From a bacterium (GTDB taxonomy: Bacteria > Bdellovibrionota > Bacteriovoracia > Bacteriovoracales > Bacteriovoracaceae): a stretch of DNA of 64,000 bases. Both the position numbers and the translations under genes were made by a program. Positions 6,933-31,417 of this stretch are shown here, in pieces (positions within the stretch are counted from its first letter, which is position 1; every line of letters starts with the position of its first letter). The notes under the pieces are model-generated. The model was not told the DNA's origin, made no database searches, and was given only the letters and a program-made list of their open reading frames with translations. Location of the stretch: positions 62,001 to 126,000 of the forward strand of contig JAUHVL010000005.1 of NCBI GenBank assembly GCA_030425045.1, in the 5' to 3' direction.

Positions 6933-7121
6933 TTATTTAGACTCTAAAAAATCCCTCAAGCCTTTGATAATATCAAAGCTTTCTTCACACCATTTCTCAA
7001 TTTTATCGAGCTCAACTTTTTGCTCGTCAGAAGCCGTTTTACGCACCTTGAATAACTTTCCATGAATCATGGTCAGTTTATTATTAATATCGTGAATAAA
7101 CTCTCTTTCTTTATCTTGCAT
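6933..7121 (-). CDS. H-box microprotein: isolated DHp-like hairpin (62 aa)
   Basis: The product has no kinase ATPase domain, but its N-terminal helix carries IHDINNKLTMIHGKL, which matches the phospho-acceptor H-box of HisKA/DHp domains (H-[DE]-I-N-N-x-L). The putative acceptor is H10. A second helix ends IIKGLRDFL, matching the end of the second DHp helix of the adjacent kinase (ITEGLRKFA). The start is uncertain: ATG at 7121 leaves a 10-nt gap after the kinase stop, while TTG at 7139 gives an 8-nt overlap and six more residues. Neither has a strong ribosome site, so coupling to the kinase is likely. It may be a phosphotransfer module or a partner that competes for kinase dimerisation (inference). 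Confidence 0.6.
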   Translation of the reverse strand: MQDKEREFIHDINNKLTMIHGKLFKVRKTASDEQKVELDKIEKWCEESFDIIKGLRDFLESK

Positions 7122-7131
7122 AAAACCAACT

Positions 7132-8691
7132 TTACTCAAATAGAGATTTTACTAATTTAATCATTTCTTTACGATTAAACGGTTTATAGATACAGCCATC
7201 AAATTCTTCTTTAACGTCACCATTTTCTTTATCAAGGTTTAAATTTACCCCACCTGTAATGAAGAGAAAGCGAGGTTGCTTGATATCTTGATTTTCCCTT
7301 AAGACTTTTAAAAAGGTTGTTCCTGTCCAACCAGGCATTTTGACATCTGAGATGATCAAGTCGTAGTCTTCAGGATGTTCACAGTATTCAATATAGGCTT
7401 CTTCTGCTCTTGAGAAACTTGAAACACTAGCACAGAGATCCTCTAACATTTCTCCCAGTACATCTCGAATCCCATCTTCATCGTCGACGATGAGTATTTT
7501 ATTTTTTATTACCGTGCCACTTGATAAGTTAGTCTTCTCATTCACTTCTTTCGTTTCTTGAAAAAGTGCTTTTCTCTCAACGGGCAACGTAATGATAAAA
7601 CTCGTCCCCTTATTTATTTCCGAGTTAAGGCTCAAACTTCCTCCAAACTCTTCAATAATACTTTTAGAAAGACTCAGCCCAAGCCCTGTTCCGTCCCCCA
7701 CTTTCTTAGTGGTAAAAAAGGAATCAAATATTTTTTCTCTTAACTCTTCAGGAATACCAGACCCAGTATCACTAATTGTAATTCTCACTTGTCCTGGTAC
7801 TTCATCAAGTATAACGTCTATACTTTTATGTGAAGATTTTTTCATGGCATACTTAGCGTTCGTAAACATGTTTAAAAAAACTTGCTCTAAACGACCTTTT
7901 GAACCACAAATAAATAAATCTTTAGATAAATTATTTTGAAGTTGAATTTCAATAGCATCAGAGTGAAAGACTTCTCTAATCATCGTAATCAACTCTTCGA
8001 CGCTCTCTTTAATAGAAAATAATTCTTTTTTCTCAGAATCAACATGAGCAAATTTTCTCAAACCTTCTGTAATATTTTTAATTCGAGATAAGTTAGCATC
8101 TATTTTTTGAGCAATCTCTTTTGCTTTATCAGATTCAAGATACTTTTCTTTTAGTAAATCCAAATACGACCAAGCCACAGAAAGAGGGTTATTAATCTCG
8201 TGACCGACTCCGGCAGATAACTCTCCAAGAGAAGCGAGTTTAGCTTGGTGCTGGGCCATCTCTTTTTGCTTCTGTGCTAACTTTTCAAATTCAACTCTTT
8301 TGGTAACATCTTGGAACGTTCCGATGAGTTTAACGACATTACCCTCATCATCACAAATAGGTTCTCCATAACTATGGACCCACTTCTTCTGCCCTTTAGC
8401 ATCACAAAATTCAAACTCACCAAAGAAAGGTTTTCTCTGCTCTATAGAATTCATAATCATTTTTGCTAATCGTTCTCTTTCTTGAGGAGCATAGAAACTC
8501 ACCCCTTCATCTTTAGATAGTGAGCGAGTGGAATCGAGGCCATAGATTTTATAAACCTGCTCACTCCATTTTGTGAGTTCTGTTTTTAAATCCAGCTCCC
8601 AAATGCCAATATTGGCGAACTCTTGAATTTTAGAAAGTAGATTCTTATCAAAAGAAATATCTTTTTCAGAATCATTATTGATCACGTTCAT
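7132..8691 (-). CDS. hybrid sensor histidine kinase (PAS-HisKA-HATPase-receiver)
   Basis: The 519-residue soluble kinase has a PAS fold (about 20-125), a HisKA dimerisation domain with H164 in GVGHEINNPLS, a HATPase domain (DTGSGIPEE, then GTGLGLSLSKSIIEEFGG) and a C-terminal receiver (about 397-515) with acceptor D449 in ISDVKMPG, then FITGG and YKPF. No membrane segment is seen, so it senses a cytoplasmic signal through PAS. It should autophosphorylate H164 and pass phosphate to D449. The output partner is not encoded beside it, except for the DHp-like microprotein directly downstream. A 130-nt upstream gap should hold its promoter. Confidence 0.9.
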   Translation of the reverse strand: MNVINNDSEKDISFDKNLLSKIQEFANIGIWELDLKTELTKWSEQVYKIYGLDSTRSLSKDEGVSFYAPQERERLAKMIMNSIEQRKPFFGEFEFCDAKGQKKWVHSYGEPICDDEGNVVKLIGTFQDVTKRVEFEKLAQKQKEMAQHQAKLASLGELSAGVGHEINNPLSVAWSYLDLLKEKYLESDKAKEIAQKIDANLSRIKNITEGLRKFAHVDSEKKELFSIKESVEELITMIREVFHSDAIEIQLQNNLSKDLFICGSKGRLEQVFLNMFTNAKYAMKKSSHKSIDVILDEVPGQVRITISDTGSGIPEELREKIFDSFFTTKKVGDGTGLGLSLSKSIIEEFGGSLSLNSEINKGTSFIITLPVERKALFQETKEVNEKTNLSSGTVIKNKILIVDDEDGIRDVLGEMLEDLCASVSSFSRAEEAYIEYCEHPEDYDLIISDVKMPGWTGTTFLKVLRENQDIKQPRFLFITGGVNLNLDKENGDVKEEFDGCIYKPFNRKEMIKLVKSLFE

Positions 8692-25862: not shown

Positions 25863-25908
25863 GTATAATTATACTAATTCAACTAAGTAAAAAAGTCTCT
25901 AGGTGACC

Positions 25909-26667
25909 ATGGTTAGTCTAAGTGCAGCAATAATTACATTAAATGAAGAGCAAAATATTGCCAGATGTATAAATTCACTTCAGGGAATTGCAGATGAGAT
26001 CATCGTTGTCGACTCTTTTTCTTCTGATAAAACAGAAGAAATTTGCATGAGCTTTAGTAATGTAAAGTTTTTTAAAAATAAATTTATAGGTCACATTCAG
26101 CAAAAGAACTATGCTTTCTCAAAAGCCTCTGGAGAATTTGTACTAGGTATTGATGCAGATGAAGTTGTAAGTCCAGAGCTAAGAAATTCGATTTTAAAAG
26201 TTAAAGAGAACCCAACGTCAAATTTCTATAGCTTTACGCGATTAAATAATTATGGAGGTCACTGGGTAAAACACTGTGGTTGGTATCCGGATATCAAGTT
26301 ACGATTAGTAAAAAAAGGAATGGCAAAGTGGGGTGGAGTTAACCCTCACGATATTTTATTACCCCAGACAAACGATGATACATCTTTTTTAACGGGAGAT
26401 TTACTTCACTATAGTTATGCTTCCATTGCAGATCATATAAATCAGACAAATAAATTTTCATCCATTGCAGCAGAATCTTTTTTTCGTGAGGGAAAAAGAA
26501 GTTCCGTTTTCCATATTTTAACGAGACCTCCACTCAAATTCTTGAAAGACTATATTCTAAAAGCGGGTTTTCTCGATGGTTGGAAAGGGTTAGTGATCTG
26601 CCTCATTAATGGTTTTTATACTTTTTTGAAATATTCAAAAATTTATGAGTTACAACGTAAAGAATGA
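25909..26667 (+). CDS. GT2 family, WaaE/KdtX-like LPS core glycosyltransferase
   Basis: The 252-residue protein starts at ATG 25909, preceded by TAGGTGA; GTG 25903 is possible. It has SAAIITLNEEQNIARCI, VVDSFSSDKTEEI and GIDADEVVSPEL (DxD-type), and the GWYPDIKLRLVKKG motif of WaaE-like enzymes. It probably adds a hexose to the inner core. Its last 25 nt overlap, antisense, the H-box microprotein at 26643-26807. Confidence 0.85.
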   Translation: MVSLSAAIITLNEEQNIARCINSLQGIADEIIVVDSFSSDKTEEICMSFSNVKFFKNKFIGHIQQKNYAFSKASGEFVLGIDADEVVSPELRNSILKVKENPTSNFYSFTRLNNYGGHWVKHCGWYPDIKLRLVKKGMAKWGGVNPHDILLPQTNDDTSFLTGDLLHYSYASIADHINQTNKFSSIAAESFFREGKRSSVFHILTRPPLKFLKDYILKAGFLDGWKGLVICLINGFYTFLKYSKIYELQRKE

Positions 26668-26807
26668 AAGATACTTTTTATTTTTTCAAGCTCAGACTCA
26701 AGGTGTTTGATACATTCTTCGTTATCTTCTTCATCACTATTTCGTAATAAATCATAGATAACTTTTATTTTCGTAAGCGAATTATTAATTTGATGAGTTT
26801 TATCCAT
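26643..26807 (-). CDS. H-box microprotein: isolated DHp-like hairpin (54 aa)
   Basis: The frame begins at ATG 26807, 8 nt inside the 3' end of the response-regulator gene, and ends at TAA 26643-26645. The product starts MDKTHQINNSLTKIK: H5 is followed by Q-I-N-N-S-L-T, the histidine-kinase H-box pattern. A second predicted helix ends in IKSIFHSLR, like the second DHp helix. No ATPase or receiver domain is present. It shares HxINNxLTxI and a terminal I-x-x-LR with the microprotein at 6933-7121, so the two are likely homologous. It is probably translated by coupling to the regulator gene. Confidence 0.55.
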   Translation of the reverse strand: MDKTHQINNSLTKIKVIYDLLRNSDEEDNEECIKHLESELEKIKSIFHSLRCNS

Positions 26808-28149
26808 GAGATGTCTCGTCTTTTGAAAGAGAAGCTAGTCGATAATAAACACTTTTCGATATTCTTAATTCTCTTGAAATTTTATTGATTCTTTCTCCAT
26901 ATTCTTTTTGAGCATGATGAAAAGCCTCTTGTTCAATTTTCTTTATTAAGTCAGGTAAGCCATGCTGTTTAATATACGATAAGTTTTTTGGAGATAAAAA
27001 ACTTTCTATTTCATCACTTGAGCTATGTGGACCTTTTAATAATGCTTGAGGTAAGTCAGACACTTGTATCGCCCCAGAATGAGTTAAGATAAGAGACTGA
27101 ATGATATTTTTTAGCTCTCTAATATTACCAGGCCAAGAATATTCATGAAGTATGTTTAATACTTCGTTAGTTAAAAATATTTTTTTAGAACTATTAGCTA
27201 TAAAAAAGTCTATGAGGGGAACTATATCGTGTATTCTTTCTTTAAGTGGAGGAATCGTAACTTCGTAACCTTTGATTCTAAAATAAAAGTCAACTCTGAG
27301 ATTACCTTGTTCAATATTTTTTTCAATGTCTTCACAAGTCGCGGAGATAAGTTGAAAGTCTACTTTGAGAGGCTTTGTTCCTCCTACAGGTGTAAACTCT
27401 TTTTCTTCAATAACTTTTAATAACTTTTTTTGAATTGATAGAGGAAGGCTTGCAATTTCATCCAAAAATAAGGTGCCACCATCGGCCATTTTGAGTAACC
27501 CATCTTTGTCTTGAGTTGCTCCGGTGAAAGAACCTTTAATATGTCCAAAAAGCTCTGACTCTATTAAGTTTTCATTAATCTCATTGAGGTTTTTTGCAAT
27601 AAAAGGACCATTGGTATTAGTCATATCGTGAATGATTTTAGCTACCGTCGTTTTTCCAACACCGGTTGGTCCTGTTAAAAGAATGGTCTTATTAAGTTGA
27701 GACTGTTCGACTGCGAACTCAATAGACCTAATCAGTGGTTCATGGCGAGTAATATATTTTTGTGAAAAGAGGGTCTTTGTTGTCGGCTTTTTCTTATTTT
27801 TTAAAAAAGATTTAAGTAAAAAATCAATGTTTTCGCTTAACTCAACTTTTGTAAAGTATTGTTGTGTTCCGAGTTTAAATGCCTGTTCAATGATGTTCTT
27901 ATCTTCATGACCAGTTAAAACGGCGCATTTAATATTTTTTTTCACGCACTCTTTTAAAACATTAAGCCCATCGAGCTTATCCTCATCATTGAGGTTTAAA
28001 TCAATAAGGGCGAAATCAAACTGATGATCTTCTATGATCGTGAGGGCAGCCTTTAAATCACGGCAAGCTTGAGTCTCCCCAAATTGTTGACATTTTTTGG
28101 TAATAAATTTTCTTAAAATGAGGTCATCTTCAACACATAATATTCGCAA
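26800..28149 (-). CDS. sigma-54 dependent response regulator (receiver-AAA+-Fis)
   Basis: The start is TTG 28149 with CGGAG about 6 nt upstream. The 449-residue protein has a receiver with D8/D9, acceptor D50, T79 and K101, an AAA+ domain with Walker A GPTGVGKT (160-167) and Walker B LFLDE (227-231), and a C-terminal Fis-type helix-turn-helix (KISRELRISKSVYYRLASL). The sigma-54 contact loop reads GSFTGA (206-211) rather than the usual GAFTGA. It should activate sigma-54 promoters when phosphorylated. No kinase is adjacent, only the DHp-like microprotein. Confidence 0.92.
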   Translation of the reverse strand: MRILCVEDDLILRKFITKKCQQFGETQACRDLKAALTIIEDHQFDFALIDLNLNDEDKLDGLNVLKECVKKNIKCAVLTGHEDKNIIEQAFKLGTQQYFTKVELSENIDFLLKSFLKNKKKPTTKTLFSQKYITRHEPLIRSIEFAVEQSQLNKTILLTGPTGVGKTTVAKIIHDMTNTNGPFIAKNLNEINENLIESELFGHIKGSFTGATQDKDGLLKMADGGTLFLDEIASLPLSIQKKLLKVIEEKEFTPVGGTKPLKVDFQLISATCEDIEKNIEQGNLRVDFYFRIKGYEVTIPPLKERIHDIVPLIDFFIANSSKKIFLTNEVLNILHEYSWPGNIRELKNIIQSLILTHSGAIQVSDLPQALLKGPHSSSDEIESFLSPKNLSYIKQHGLPDLIKKIEQEAFHHAQKEYGERINKISRELRISKSVYYRLASLSKDETSHG

Positions 28150-28228: not shown

Positions 28229-31200
28229 TTATTTTAGTAAAGCTTCGAAATTTTCCATAGTTAGCTTACCTGTAAAGAGCTCATCACTACTGTTCTCAGG
28301 TAATAACTCTTGAAAGAGCTCTCGTTTTGTTTGCTGGAGCTCGAGGACTTTCTCTTCAACCGAGCCTTTCACAATTGGCCTATAAACAGTCAGATTATTC
28401 TTTTGGCCAATTCTGTGAGCACGGTCAATTGCTTGGGATTCGACAGCAGGGTTCCACCAAGGGTCCATGACAAAGACATAACTAGCTGCCGTTAAATTGA
28501 GACCAACACCACCAGCACGAAGTGAGATTAAAAAGACTTGGCTTTTTCCACCTTGAAAAATTTCAACTTGTTCTTGTCGTTTTTTTACACTTTGAGAACC
28601 ATCAATTCGAGATAGCTTCAAGTGCTTCTCATGTAAAACTTTCTGAATCAAATCAAGATAAGTCGTAAACTGAGAGAAAACGATCGCTTGATGACCTTCT
28701 TCTATAATTTGATCAAGTGTTTCAACTAAAAACTCAATTTTTGTTGAATTGATATTGGCCATTGAAAAAGTGGGGTTATCTTGTTGCGGTTGCCATAAAC
28801 ATCTCTGACGTAACTCAAGCAGACCTTTTAAAATTTCTCCGTATTTTCTTTTCGAAGGAGCATCGTCAATTTTCTTTCTCACAGTCGATAAGGTTTCAAT
28901 ATACCTTGTTTTTTCATGAGTAGAGAAATTGAGATAAACATTATTTTCAATTTTCGGAGGTAGGTCAGAGAGCACTTGTCCCTTTGTTCTTCTTAAAATG
29001 AATGGACTCGCTGTTTTTCTTGCCAGTAATCTCGATTTTTTATTAGAACTCGTTCTGAAAAAATGCAAATCACCCCAGATCCCTGGAATAGATAAATCTA
29101 AAATATTATAAAACTCGGCAAGATCATTTTCTACTGGGGTACCCGTTAAGCAAATTCTAAAATCGGCTTTCAGTTTCCTCGCAGCAAAGGAACCTTGGCT
29201 TCTGATGTTTTTAAGGTGCTGTACTTCATCGAGAATAAAGATATCGAAATGAACATCAGCAAAAGTATCATGGATTTCTCTTTTTAATATTCCATAACTG
29301 GTAAGGATAATTTTAGAGTCTTTGTCATAGCTTCTTTCACCACCGTGATAAATTGAGACATCGAGATTTGAGAACTTCTTAAATTCTTTTTCCCAGTTGA
29401 GAAGTAATGTCACTGGACAGACAATTAGGATTTTATCGACTTCTTCATATATAGAGGTGATGAAACTAATTGTTTGAAGTGTTTTCCCAAGTCCCATGTC
29501 ATCGGCAAGACAAGCTCCCAGTTTATTTTCATAAAGAAAGCGTAGCCATTGAAATCCCGTTTTTTGATAAGGTCTCAGTACATCTTTTTGATTAGATGGA
29601 ATTTCGTATTCGGGCATTTCTTCAAGCGAAGAGAGCGTTTCACAGATTTTGATTTCTTCCTCTGTTAAAGCTCCCTCAATCCCCATCTTCTTTAGTTCGA
29701 AAAGCTCAAATATTCTTGCTCGTTGAAAGGGGATGACAAATTTATTAGTGGTTGTGTTGTCATCTTTGGTTTCTTTGTAAACTGATTGCTTTTCATATTC
29801 AGTATATTTTTTAAGAAACTTCACGAGCTCTTTTTGCTCTCGATTTAATAGAATGAGCTTGTCATCAGTAATAATATAATCTTGTCCGATTTTTGCTTGT
29901 TTTAGTATTTCGAGATCTTCGTCATTAATCTCTAGCTCAAGATCAAACCAATTAGATGCTTTTGATTTTCTTTCAAACCGTACTCTCGAAGACCAGTGAC
30001 CAGCTTCACTATTTTGATAAAGGATATTGAGATGATAAGTATTGAGAGCATTGTGAAAACCATGAAGACCCTCAAGTAATATAGTTGTTCCCACTTTGTA
30101 ATTAAGTTCATTGATTGTGGAATCAAAAGTAGAAAATCTAAAAAAGGTTTCACCAAAAGATTTTAATGCTTGAGAGATATACTTTTTAATAAATGTATTT
30201 TCGTATTTAAATAGTACTTTTTCGTGAACATGGTAAACATTAGTTTCTTCAGTGTCCCTAAGGCTATCAATGAGATCGATTATTTTAAACTTTCTACTCG
30301 TGCTTGTGAGTTCTTTTTTATAATTTTGAGTATTGAACTCAAAGTCATTAACTAATGTGTGAATAAACTGATAAGCATCGATTTTTCTTTTAAAGCTAGA
30401 AAGCTCACCACCATTAAAGTTAAAAAGTTTTAAAACGGCTGGTATGGGAGCTTTGACACCATTAGAACCTTTAAAAGAAATAGCTATGTCAAATTGGCTA
30501 TTGCCCTTTTTGCGATCTATTTCAAAATAAGGTGCTGCAGACATGATAGGAACTTCTTCAAGGGGAATCCCATCGAGAGAAACTTTAAAGTTATCGCTAA
30601 CATAGGCTCCAGCGATAGCAATAATGTCATTGATATTATAGCTATGAATATTATGTCTTATCTTTTGGATAAGTAATTTAATATCACCATCGATATTATA
30701 AGCCTCACCATTTTTCCAATTGAATATATAGATATGCTCAAACAGTGAAATTTCAGATGTCTTTTTTCCCTCACTATCTTTTAAATAAAAAGTTAATTGA
30801 GGGATACTACTAATATTTTCATTTTCCTCTGTTTTAATAACGGATTGTATATCCATTACCAATGTATGTTTAAAATTTGTTGGAAGAGGAAAGTTTTTAA
30901 CTTCTCGGTTTTGGAGAAGATATTGGAGTGATGAGTAGGTTGAATTAGGTTTGGCCCCCACAAGTTTATGTGGCCCATCTAAAATTTTTCCATATTCATA
31001 GACACTAACAGCGTAATGAAAAAGTGTATGACTAGGTGGTAGGGGAGATGATGAACTTTCTTCAGAAGCTTGTTCGTTGAGTTTAAGTTTTATGCAATAA
31101 CTTAAAAATAGAGCAACGACATGATAGCAGTGCCCATGCTCTGTCCACTCTTTACAATTGCAATCAGAGCTGACGGGACTTTCATCAGTATCTTCGAGTC

Positions 31201-31417
31201 TTTTTTTATAGGTAACTTTTGTCTCGTAGTTTCCACTGTCACGAACGAGACCACTACAAATGAAATACGTATCGAAGTTTCCTTTACTAAAAGAAATTGA
31301 AATTTGTGATTGTTCTACTAATTGTTCTGCTTTTCCAATTAGTTTGGTATCGAAATATTTACTAGCTTTTGTCTTTAACTCTGTTGTTAGTGACCTTCTG
31401 CTATAGTCAGGTATCAT
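28229..31417 (-). CDS. SNF2 family helicase with N-terminal SWIM zinc finger
   Basis: The 1062-residue protein has a SWIM finger (CNCKEWTEHGHCYHVVAL, near 95-112), a long middle region, then the SNF2 motor: Walker A DDMGLGKT, DEVQ box in FILDEVQHLKN, LTGTPVEND, and the C-terminal helicase motifs SLRAGGVGLNLTAAS and QAIDRAHRIGQ. Such bacterial SWI2/SNF2 proteins are double-stranded-DNA translocases thought to remodel DNA-protein or RNA polymerase complexes. AAGGAAAG precedes the ATG. It follows rpoD on the same strand after 112 nt with a possible hairpin between. Confidence 0.92.
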   Translation of the reverse strand: MIPDYSRRSLTTELKTKASKYFDTKLIGKAEQLVEQSQISISFSKGNFDTYFICSGLVRDSGNYETKVTYKKRLEDTDESPVSSDCNCKEWTEHGHCYHVVALFLSYCIKLKLNEQASEESSSSPLPPSHTLFHYAVSVYEYGKILDGPHKLVGAKPNSTYSSLQYLLQNREVKNFPLPTNFKHTLVMDIQSVIKTEENENISSIPQLTFYLKDSEGKKTSEISLFEHIYIFNWKNGEAYNIDGDIKLLIQKIRHNIHSYNINDIIAIAGAYVSDNFKVSLDGIPLEEVPIMSAAPYFEIDRKKGNSQFDIAISFKGSNGVKAPIPAVLKLFNFNGGELSSFKRKIDAYQFIHTLVNDFEFNTQNYKKELTSTSRKFKIIDLIDSLRDTEETNVYHVHEKVLFKYENTFIKKYISQALKSFGETFFRFSTFDSTINELNYKVGTTILLEGLHGFHNALNTYHLNILYQNSEAGHWSSRVRFERKSKASNWFDLELEINDEDLEILKQAKIGQDYIITDDKLILLNREQKELVKFLKKYTEYEKQSVYKETKDDNTTTNKFVIPFQRARIFELFELKKMGIEGALTEEEIKICETLSSLEEMPEYEIPSNQKDVLRPYQKTGFQWLRFLYENKLGACLADDMGLGKTLQTISFITSIYEEVDKILIVCPVTLLLNWEKEFKKFSNLDVSIYHGGERSYDKDSKIILTSYGILKREIHDTFADVHFDIFILDEVQHLKNIRSQGSFAARKLKADFRICLTGTPVENDLAEFYNILDLSIPGIWGDLHFFRTSSNKKSRLLARKTASPFILRRTKGQVLSDLPPKIENNVYLNFSTHEKTRYIETLSTVRKKIDDAPSKRKYGEILKGLLELRQRCLWQPQQDNPTFSMANINSTKIEFLVETLDQIIEEGHQAIVFSQFTTYLDLIQKVLHEKHLKLSRIDGSQSVKKRQEQVEIFQGGKSQVFLISLRAGGVGLNLTAASYVFVMDPWWNPAVESQAIDRAHRIGQKNNLTVYRPIVKGSVEEKVLELQQTKRELFQELLPENSSDELFTGKLTMENFEALLK

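Follow-up and report, generated by a model that had tools for sequence, protein, structure and literature searches.

A DHp-only microprotein encoded with kinase-less sigma-54 response regulators

A sigma-54 response regulator gene without a neighbouring kinase gene, from a bacterium of the Bacteriovoracaceae, is followed by an overlapping frame for a DHp-only microprotein, and the same two-gene arrangement recurs beside relatives of the regulator in other genomes. The small frame is coding and conserved, its sequence is DHp-like with an invariant His, and the receivers of the partner regulators keep an invariant Asp and Lys. Sequence comparison gives good support to the regulator-microprotein pair as a conserved module. 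We hold with moderate confidence that the microprotein is a His phosphotransfer protein of the Spo0B kind, dimeric but lacking an ATPase-like domain, and dedicated to the regulator with which it would be cotranslated. Orphan (kinase-less) response regulators are common, and the route by which they are charged is usually obscure. Throughout, "the window" is the whole stretch of DNA analysed (64,000 nucleotides, contig JAUHVL010000005.1).

Results

The locus within the window

On the minus strand of the window, the ORF 26643-26807 starts with ATG and encodes MDKTHQINNSLTKIKVIYDLLRNSDEEDNEECIKHLESELEKIKSIFHSLRCNS (Table 1). The initial annotation described a 54-residue frame at this place that overlaps the regulator gene by 8 nt, and reading of the sequence bore out both the frame and the overlap. 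ATG ORFs of 45-100 aa start in the window with a background frequency of about 3% per 30 nt. The regulator does, as had been noted, lack an adjacent kinase, being flanked by the SNF2-type helicase gene and the convergent glycosyltransferase gene; a HATPase_c domain is absent from the 54-aa microprotein and from these two adjacent genes, and beyond the SNF2-type gene, upstream of the regulator and on the same strand, lies rpoD (named from its sequence). With the regulator as query, the genome contigs returned solely distant AAA+ homologues in other phyla. In the anti-phage library the regulator matched generic RtcR/PspF-type AAA+ models only and the microprotein matched none, and the sigma-54 promoter scan of the window gave no clear excess over shuffles.

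Table 1. Features of the microprotein locus (window coordinates; evidence as scored for each feature).
Feature	Position	Strand	Evidence or remark
DHp-only microprotein, 54 aa, ATG start	26643..26807	-	held-out family profile E=1.1e-6; Pfam HisKA E=3.9e-4; AF2 hairpin pLDDT 92.4
His5 codon, predicted phospho-acceptor	26793..26795	-	His in 64/64 family members
Partner response regulator, receiver-sigma54 AAA+-HTH (NtrC-like), 449 aa, TTG start	26800..28149	-	Pfam Response_reg 3.3e-13, Sigma54_activat 1.5e-54
Asp50 codon, predicted receiver phosphorylation site	28000..28002	-	D50 64/64, K101 64/64 in microprotein-paired receivers
SNF2-type helicase gene, upstream, same strand; synteny marker	28229..31417	-	same gene order in G017 (L123 and L221 compared)
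Glycosyltransferase-like gene, convergent; outside module	25903..26667	+	3' end overlaps microprotein 3' end by 25 nt

Pairing of the microprotein with regulators

A search of 59 relatives with the single 54-residue sequence gave weak matches only. One of these came from genome G016, where it immediately follows a regulator of 45% identity that had been found independently, and downstream of many other relatives of the regulator there is an ORF of 47-89 aa which starts at or just inside the regulator end and carries a His, the next residue being usually Asp or Glu. The pairing was tested with 67 regulators chosen by regulator similarity alone, the small gene being ignored in the selection. To exclude selection by eye, the microprotein alignment was divided into five parts and each ORF was scored by a profile blind to its locus. 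At E<0.01 the held-out profiles recognised 31 of the 52 small ORFs of the downstream zone versus 2 of 1,156 small ORFs elsewhere; 31/67 regulators are thereby followed by a recognised ORF of 47-89 aa (Fisher p=3e-45 against the 2/1,156 background ORFs). One of the two background matches is a genuine member of the family for which an early start had been read, and the other is the second DHp-like small ORF (L087:4400-4684, +) near L087, a locus with one such ORF already. The window ORF, when left out of training, was recognised with E=1.1e-6.

The full profile collected 64 distinct regulator-microprotein pairs. The initial annotation had looked to a profile search for repeated co-location with receiver genes and for an invariant His, and both were seen. 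The microprotein starts in these pairs cluster at the regulator stop, the commonest arrangement being a 4-nt ATGA-type overlap, which suggests that the microprotein is translationally coupled to its regulator. All nine regulators that have a kinase gene no more than 400 nt away lack the microprotein (p=0.0027, with kinship between loci uncorrected), a result that fits a module that stands in for a linked kinase; at L070 a divergent kinase lies about 460 nt from a microprotein-paired regulator. The microprotein is not obligatory, since it is absent at 27 of the 58 regulators without a nearby kinase. No stand-alone small-frame match was obtained outside the window's own family in the searches made; the profile matches listed from elsewhere in the window's phylum, as well as those in 11 genomes from other taxa, were long frames.

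Neighbours of another kind were also recorded. Further kinase-less sigma-54 regulators without the microprotein (L039, L043, L048-L051, L054, L062) have instead conserved proteins of ~110 aa (HTH-like) and ~157 aa, which are a different partner type of such regulators. After the regulators at L041, L045, L061, L053, L059 and L060, with or without an intervening microprotein, there is a conserved secreted-looking protein of ~260-290 aa, a candidate target of the regulator.

Synteny and selection

The window and genome G017 have rpoD, the SNF2 helicase, the regulator and the microprotein in identical order, and the two loci are therefore taken as orthologous; the two microproteins are hardly alike outside the H-box. 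A ratio of synonymous to nonsynonymous change near one had been set beforehand as a refutation of the coding frame. For close microprotein pairs, drawn from a well-sampled genus and from several further loci, all of them in genera other than the window's, dN/dS was mostly 0.03-0.3 with a maximum of 0.47, as expected under purifying selection; in a second genus the synonymous sites were saturated in this comparison. Together with the held-out profile match, purifying selection in the family upholds the original view that the frame is genuinely coding and DHp-like.

Residue conservation and domain identity

The His is present in 64/64 family members. The following residue (H+1) is Asp or Glu in 53/64 and Gln in the window protein, and position H+4 is Ser in 28, Asn in 13, Gly in 10, Ala in 6, Lys in 5 and Thr in 0 of the 64, the window protein having Asn (Asn9). 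Positions H-2, +2, +6, +9, +13 and +16 are hydrophobic across the family, a heptad-like spacing consistent with a helical bundle. In the partner receivers D50 and K101 are each conserved in 64/64, and S/T79 in 57/64.

Pfam HisKA (PF00512) aligned residues 4-50 of the window protein to profile positions 10-57 with E=3.9e-4, the score of 20.8 bits being below the gathering cut-off of 26.9; among 34 members compared with Pfam, HisKA was found in 7 (E<=0.1) and SPOB_a in 1. Hpt (PF01627) gave no match for the window protein, nor does it occur among the 25 families listed for the 34 members. NCBIfam gives the microprotein no name, and standard annotation misses it because it is nameless there and falls below the Pfam HisKA cut-off.

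AlphaFold2 predicted a two-helix hairpin (helices 3-23 and 30-53; mean pLDDT 92.4), the chain ending after helix 2, so that no C-terminal Bergerat-like domain follows; as the His is residue 5 of 54, an N-terminal sensor-type domain is not possible either. Among the high-ranking Foldseek matches to this predicted hairpin were the DHp of PhoR (5ukv, TMq 0.82) and LvrB (0.83), and also YycG, DivL and HK853. No Foldseek E-value was significant (0.8 or worse), coiled-coil proteins were interspersed and other helical hairpins scored similarly; Foldseek alone cannot, therefore, prove a DHp. The sequence search of PDB chains was likewise not decisive, since the EnvZ DHp (E 0.11-0.25) was outscored by coiled-coil proteins and GTP pyrophosphokinase. 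In 297 genomes from another phylum the family profile matched long frames exclusively (>=161 aa, mostly >250), with E-values as low as 9.5e-8; the three that were examined have HATPase_c after the H-box (HDLKNQ, HEINNP). The profile thus recognises, in a different phylum, the H-box region of complete histidine kinases, and the derivation of the microprotein from a DHp domain is, at the level of sequence, well supported.

Microprotein A and other DHp-like small frames

The initial annotation paired the window protein with a second one, microprotein A, and argued that two independent two-component genes in one window have a DHp-only partner. Microprotein A is a small H-box-like frame (6933-7127, minus strand) downstream of a PAS-HisKA-HATPase-REC hybrid kinase (7132-8691). 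It resembles the window microprotein over the H-box, and the string HxINNxLTxI is indeed present in both; the two also have a C-terminal motif in common, as claimed, although its spacing is I-x-x-x-LR and not I-x-x-LR. The family profile scores A at an unconvincing E of about 0.1-0.4, and neither the relatives of its hybrid kinase, in ten further genomes, nor four paralogues in its own genome have an ORF like A beside them. We rejected A as a second family member, and the argument from two cases in one window is weak because A is not conserved in these relatives.

DHp-like small frames were also seen in other settings. In genera g25 and g5 (L160, L161, L162, L168, L206) a frame of 57-79 aa with the motif LSHDILNxLERLRIMHDL overlaps or abuts fumarylacetoacetate-hydrolase-like and ApaG-like genes, with no receiver nearby. 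Those at L169, L174, L179 and L197 are of 61-79 aa, and in the neighbourhoods read (L169, L179, L197) the frame overlaps the start of a ~195-aa gene near a flavin-oxidoreductase-like gene. At L195 (992-1198, +) a 68-aa DHp-only protein comes directly after a 122-aa receiver-only protein, possibly a two-part minimal relay.

Discussion

Relation to known systems

Spo0B has a C-terminal ATPase-like domain, as has ChpT, whereas the microprotein is without one. Spo0B of Bacillus and ChpT of Caulobacter are dimeric histidine phosphotransferases in which a hairpin dimer passes phosphate between receivers (PMC3433190, PMC9981736), and together with PhyT they have been described as phosphotransferases from degenerated kinases (PMC3433190, PMC5898713). 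The microprotein is predicted to share with Spo0B and ChpT a His-bearing helical hairpin that would form a four-helix bundle by dimerisation; in contrast to them it has only about 47-90 aa, and every copy is matched with a single regulator. A HisKA domain without HATPase is also known from archaea, in proteins for which a phosphotransfer or phosphatase role has been proposed (PMC5847659). These proteins have in common with the microproteins a HisKA-like domain, a conserved His and the lack of an ATPase domain; but they carry further sensor-type domains, whereas the microproteins carry none and lie downstream of an NtrC-type regulator. NtrC-family regulators with an adjacent kinase have the same receiver, sigma-54 AAA+ and HTH domains, and here the microprotein gene replaces the kinase gene.

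The Hpt box has the consensus H-x-[LI]-K-G. Hpt proteins (PF01627) are likewise small, and K/R at H+3 and G at H+4 in some microproteins resemble the Hpt box; an Hpt protein, however, is a monomeric four-helix bundle and the microprotein is a predicted two-helix hairpin. The initial annotation regarded a class of minimal DHp proteins as new. This has to be narrowed, given the ATPase-free HisKA proteins and the phosphotransferases from degenerate kinases named above; in the literature searched, most subscription journals lying outside its coverage, no description was found of a regulator that has a DHp-only microprotein as its partner.

Function of the microprotein

A DHp that lacks an ATP-binding domain is unable to charge itself, but it can pass phosphoryl groups between receivers or aid phosphate removal. 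In the reading that we prefer, the microprotein is a stand-alone DHp of two helices, with neither sensor nor ATP-binding domain, which would dimerise into a four-helix bundle and so amount to Spo0B or ChpT minus the C-terminal ATPase-like domain. His5 would be charged by a kinase encoded elsewhere, most likely via the receiver of a hybrid kinase, and its phosphate would pass to Asp50 of the sigma-54 activator, although reverse flow may also occur. Dimerisation, phosphorylation, the direction of transfer and the identity of the donor are the steps that we infer here. The invariant His together with the invariant Asp and Lys of the partner is a signature of phosphotransfer. Possible donors exist in the window organism's own genome, with 33 HATPase_c matches, 41 receivers, several hybrid kinases and 8 Hpt domains, all as candidates only; the 8 conventional Hpt domains were also counted against a dedicated phosphotransfer role for the microprotein. 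Covariation of microprotein helix 1 with the regulator placed receiver helix-1 windows at rank 18 of 414 (42 non-redundant pairs), a modest effect that is suggestive only.

Next in standing, though unlikely, is a dedicated phosphatase, whose DHp fold would dock on the phosphorylated regulator and speed phosphate loss from Asp50; a regulator that other donors had charged would in this way stay off until needed. Separated from the catalytic domain, the DHp of EnvZ is reported to be active as a phosphatase (Zhu et al. 2000, as cited in PMC3510030), and such a function has been proposed in an archaeal census for HisKA proteins without HATPase (PMC5847659). The Asn at H+4 of the window protein is the residue type needed by HisKA phosphatases, in which Thr or Asn at this position is required for activity and loss of the His only lowers it (PMC3510030). 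Across the family, however, Asn at H+4 is confined to 13/64 and Thr to 0/64, yet the His, which merely enhances HisKA phosphatase activity, is invariant; these counts favour phosphotransfer as the shared function and make phosphatase action less probable as a role shared by the whole family. The window copy, to judge from Asn at H+4 and Gln at H+1, could itself be a phosphatase.

CheA3/CheA4 is an example of a split histidine kinase. Split kinases (PMC3591291) resemble the present case in having the phospho-acceptor separate from the ATP-binding domain, and the separate CA domain of another kinase might phosphorylate His5 in trans and thus complete a full kinase. The acidic H+1 residue in 53/64 members, needed for HisKA kinase activity (PMC3510030), speaks for this, but the window protein has Gln there, it has no linked partner kinase gene, no CA-only gene lies beside the regulators examined, and the small-frame HATPase matches inspected include no intact CA-only gene; we regard the idea as rather improbable. 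The match in the organism's own genome, on contig C24 (L214:815-1923, +), resembles a broken kinase gene with frames of 274 aa and 96 aa, arising from a frameshift or an assembly error.

Equally doubtful is a non-catalytic subunit that binds the regulator as inhibitor, chaperone or dimerisation aid, with the His kept for docking and not for phosphate. A tiny overlapping gene is what would be expected of a stoichiometric subunit, and the sequence diverges strongly elsewhere (mean column identity 20%); docking alone, however, hardly explains an invariant His along with an invariant Asp and Lys in the partner. That the frame is a chance ORF, or the functionless relic of a decayed kinase gene, might be argued from its mere 54 aa and from comparisons drawn from genera other than the window organism's own, but for the family this is, on the comparative evidence, already refuted by the kept position, the profile match and purifying selection, and we give it practically no weight.

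Implications

Dedicated phosphotransfer, extended to the whole lineage, would mean that each kinase-less sigma-54 regulator is cotranslated with its own minimal ATPase-free phosphotransfer dimer, and that distant hybrid kinases reach many regulators via private DHp adaptors; we put this forward tentatively, at somewhat less than an even chance. Each of more than 60 kinase-less regulators now has a physically linked candidate partner that can be tested directly. The microprotein shows how far a histidine kinase may be reduced with its His still under selection. If phosphotransfer is the true function, then 50-60 residues suffice for a genetically encoded phosphorelay adaptor; and if the adaptors are private to their regulators, they would rank with the smallest proteins known for dedicated phosphotransfer, and would represent a new means of insulating or fanning out phosphorelays.
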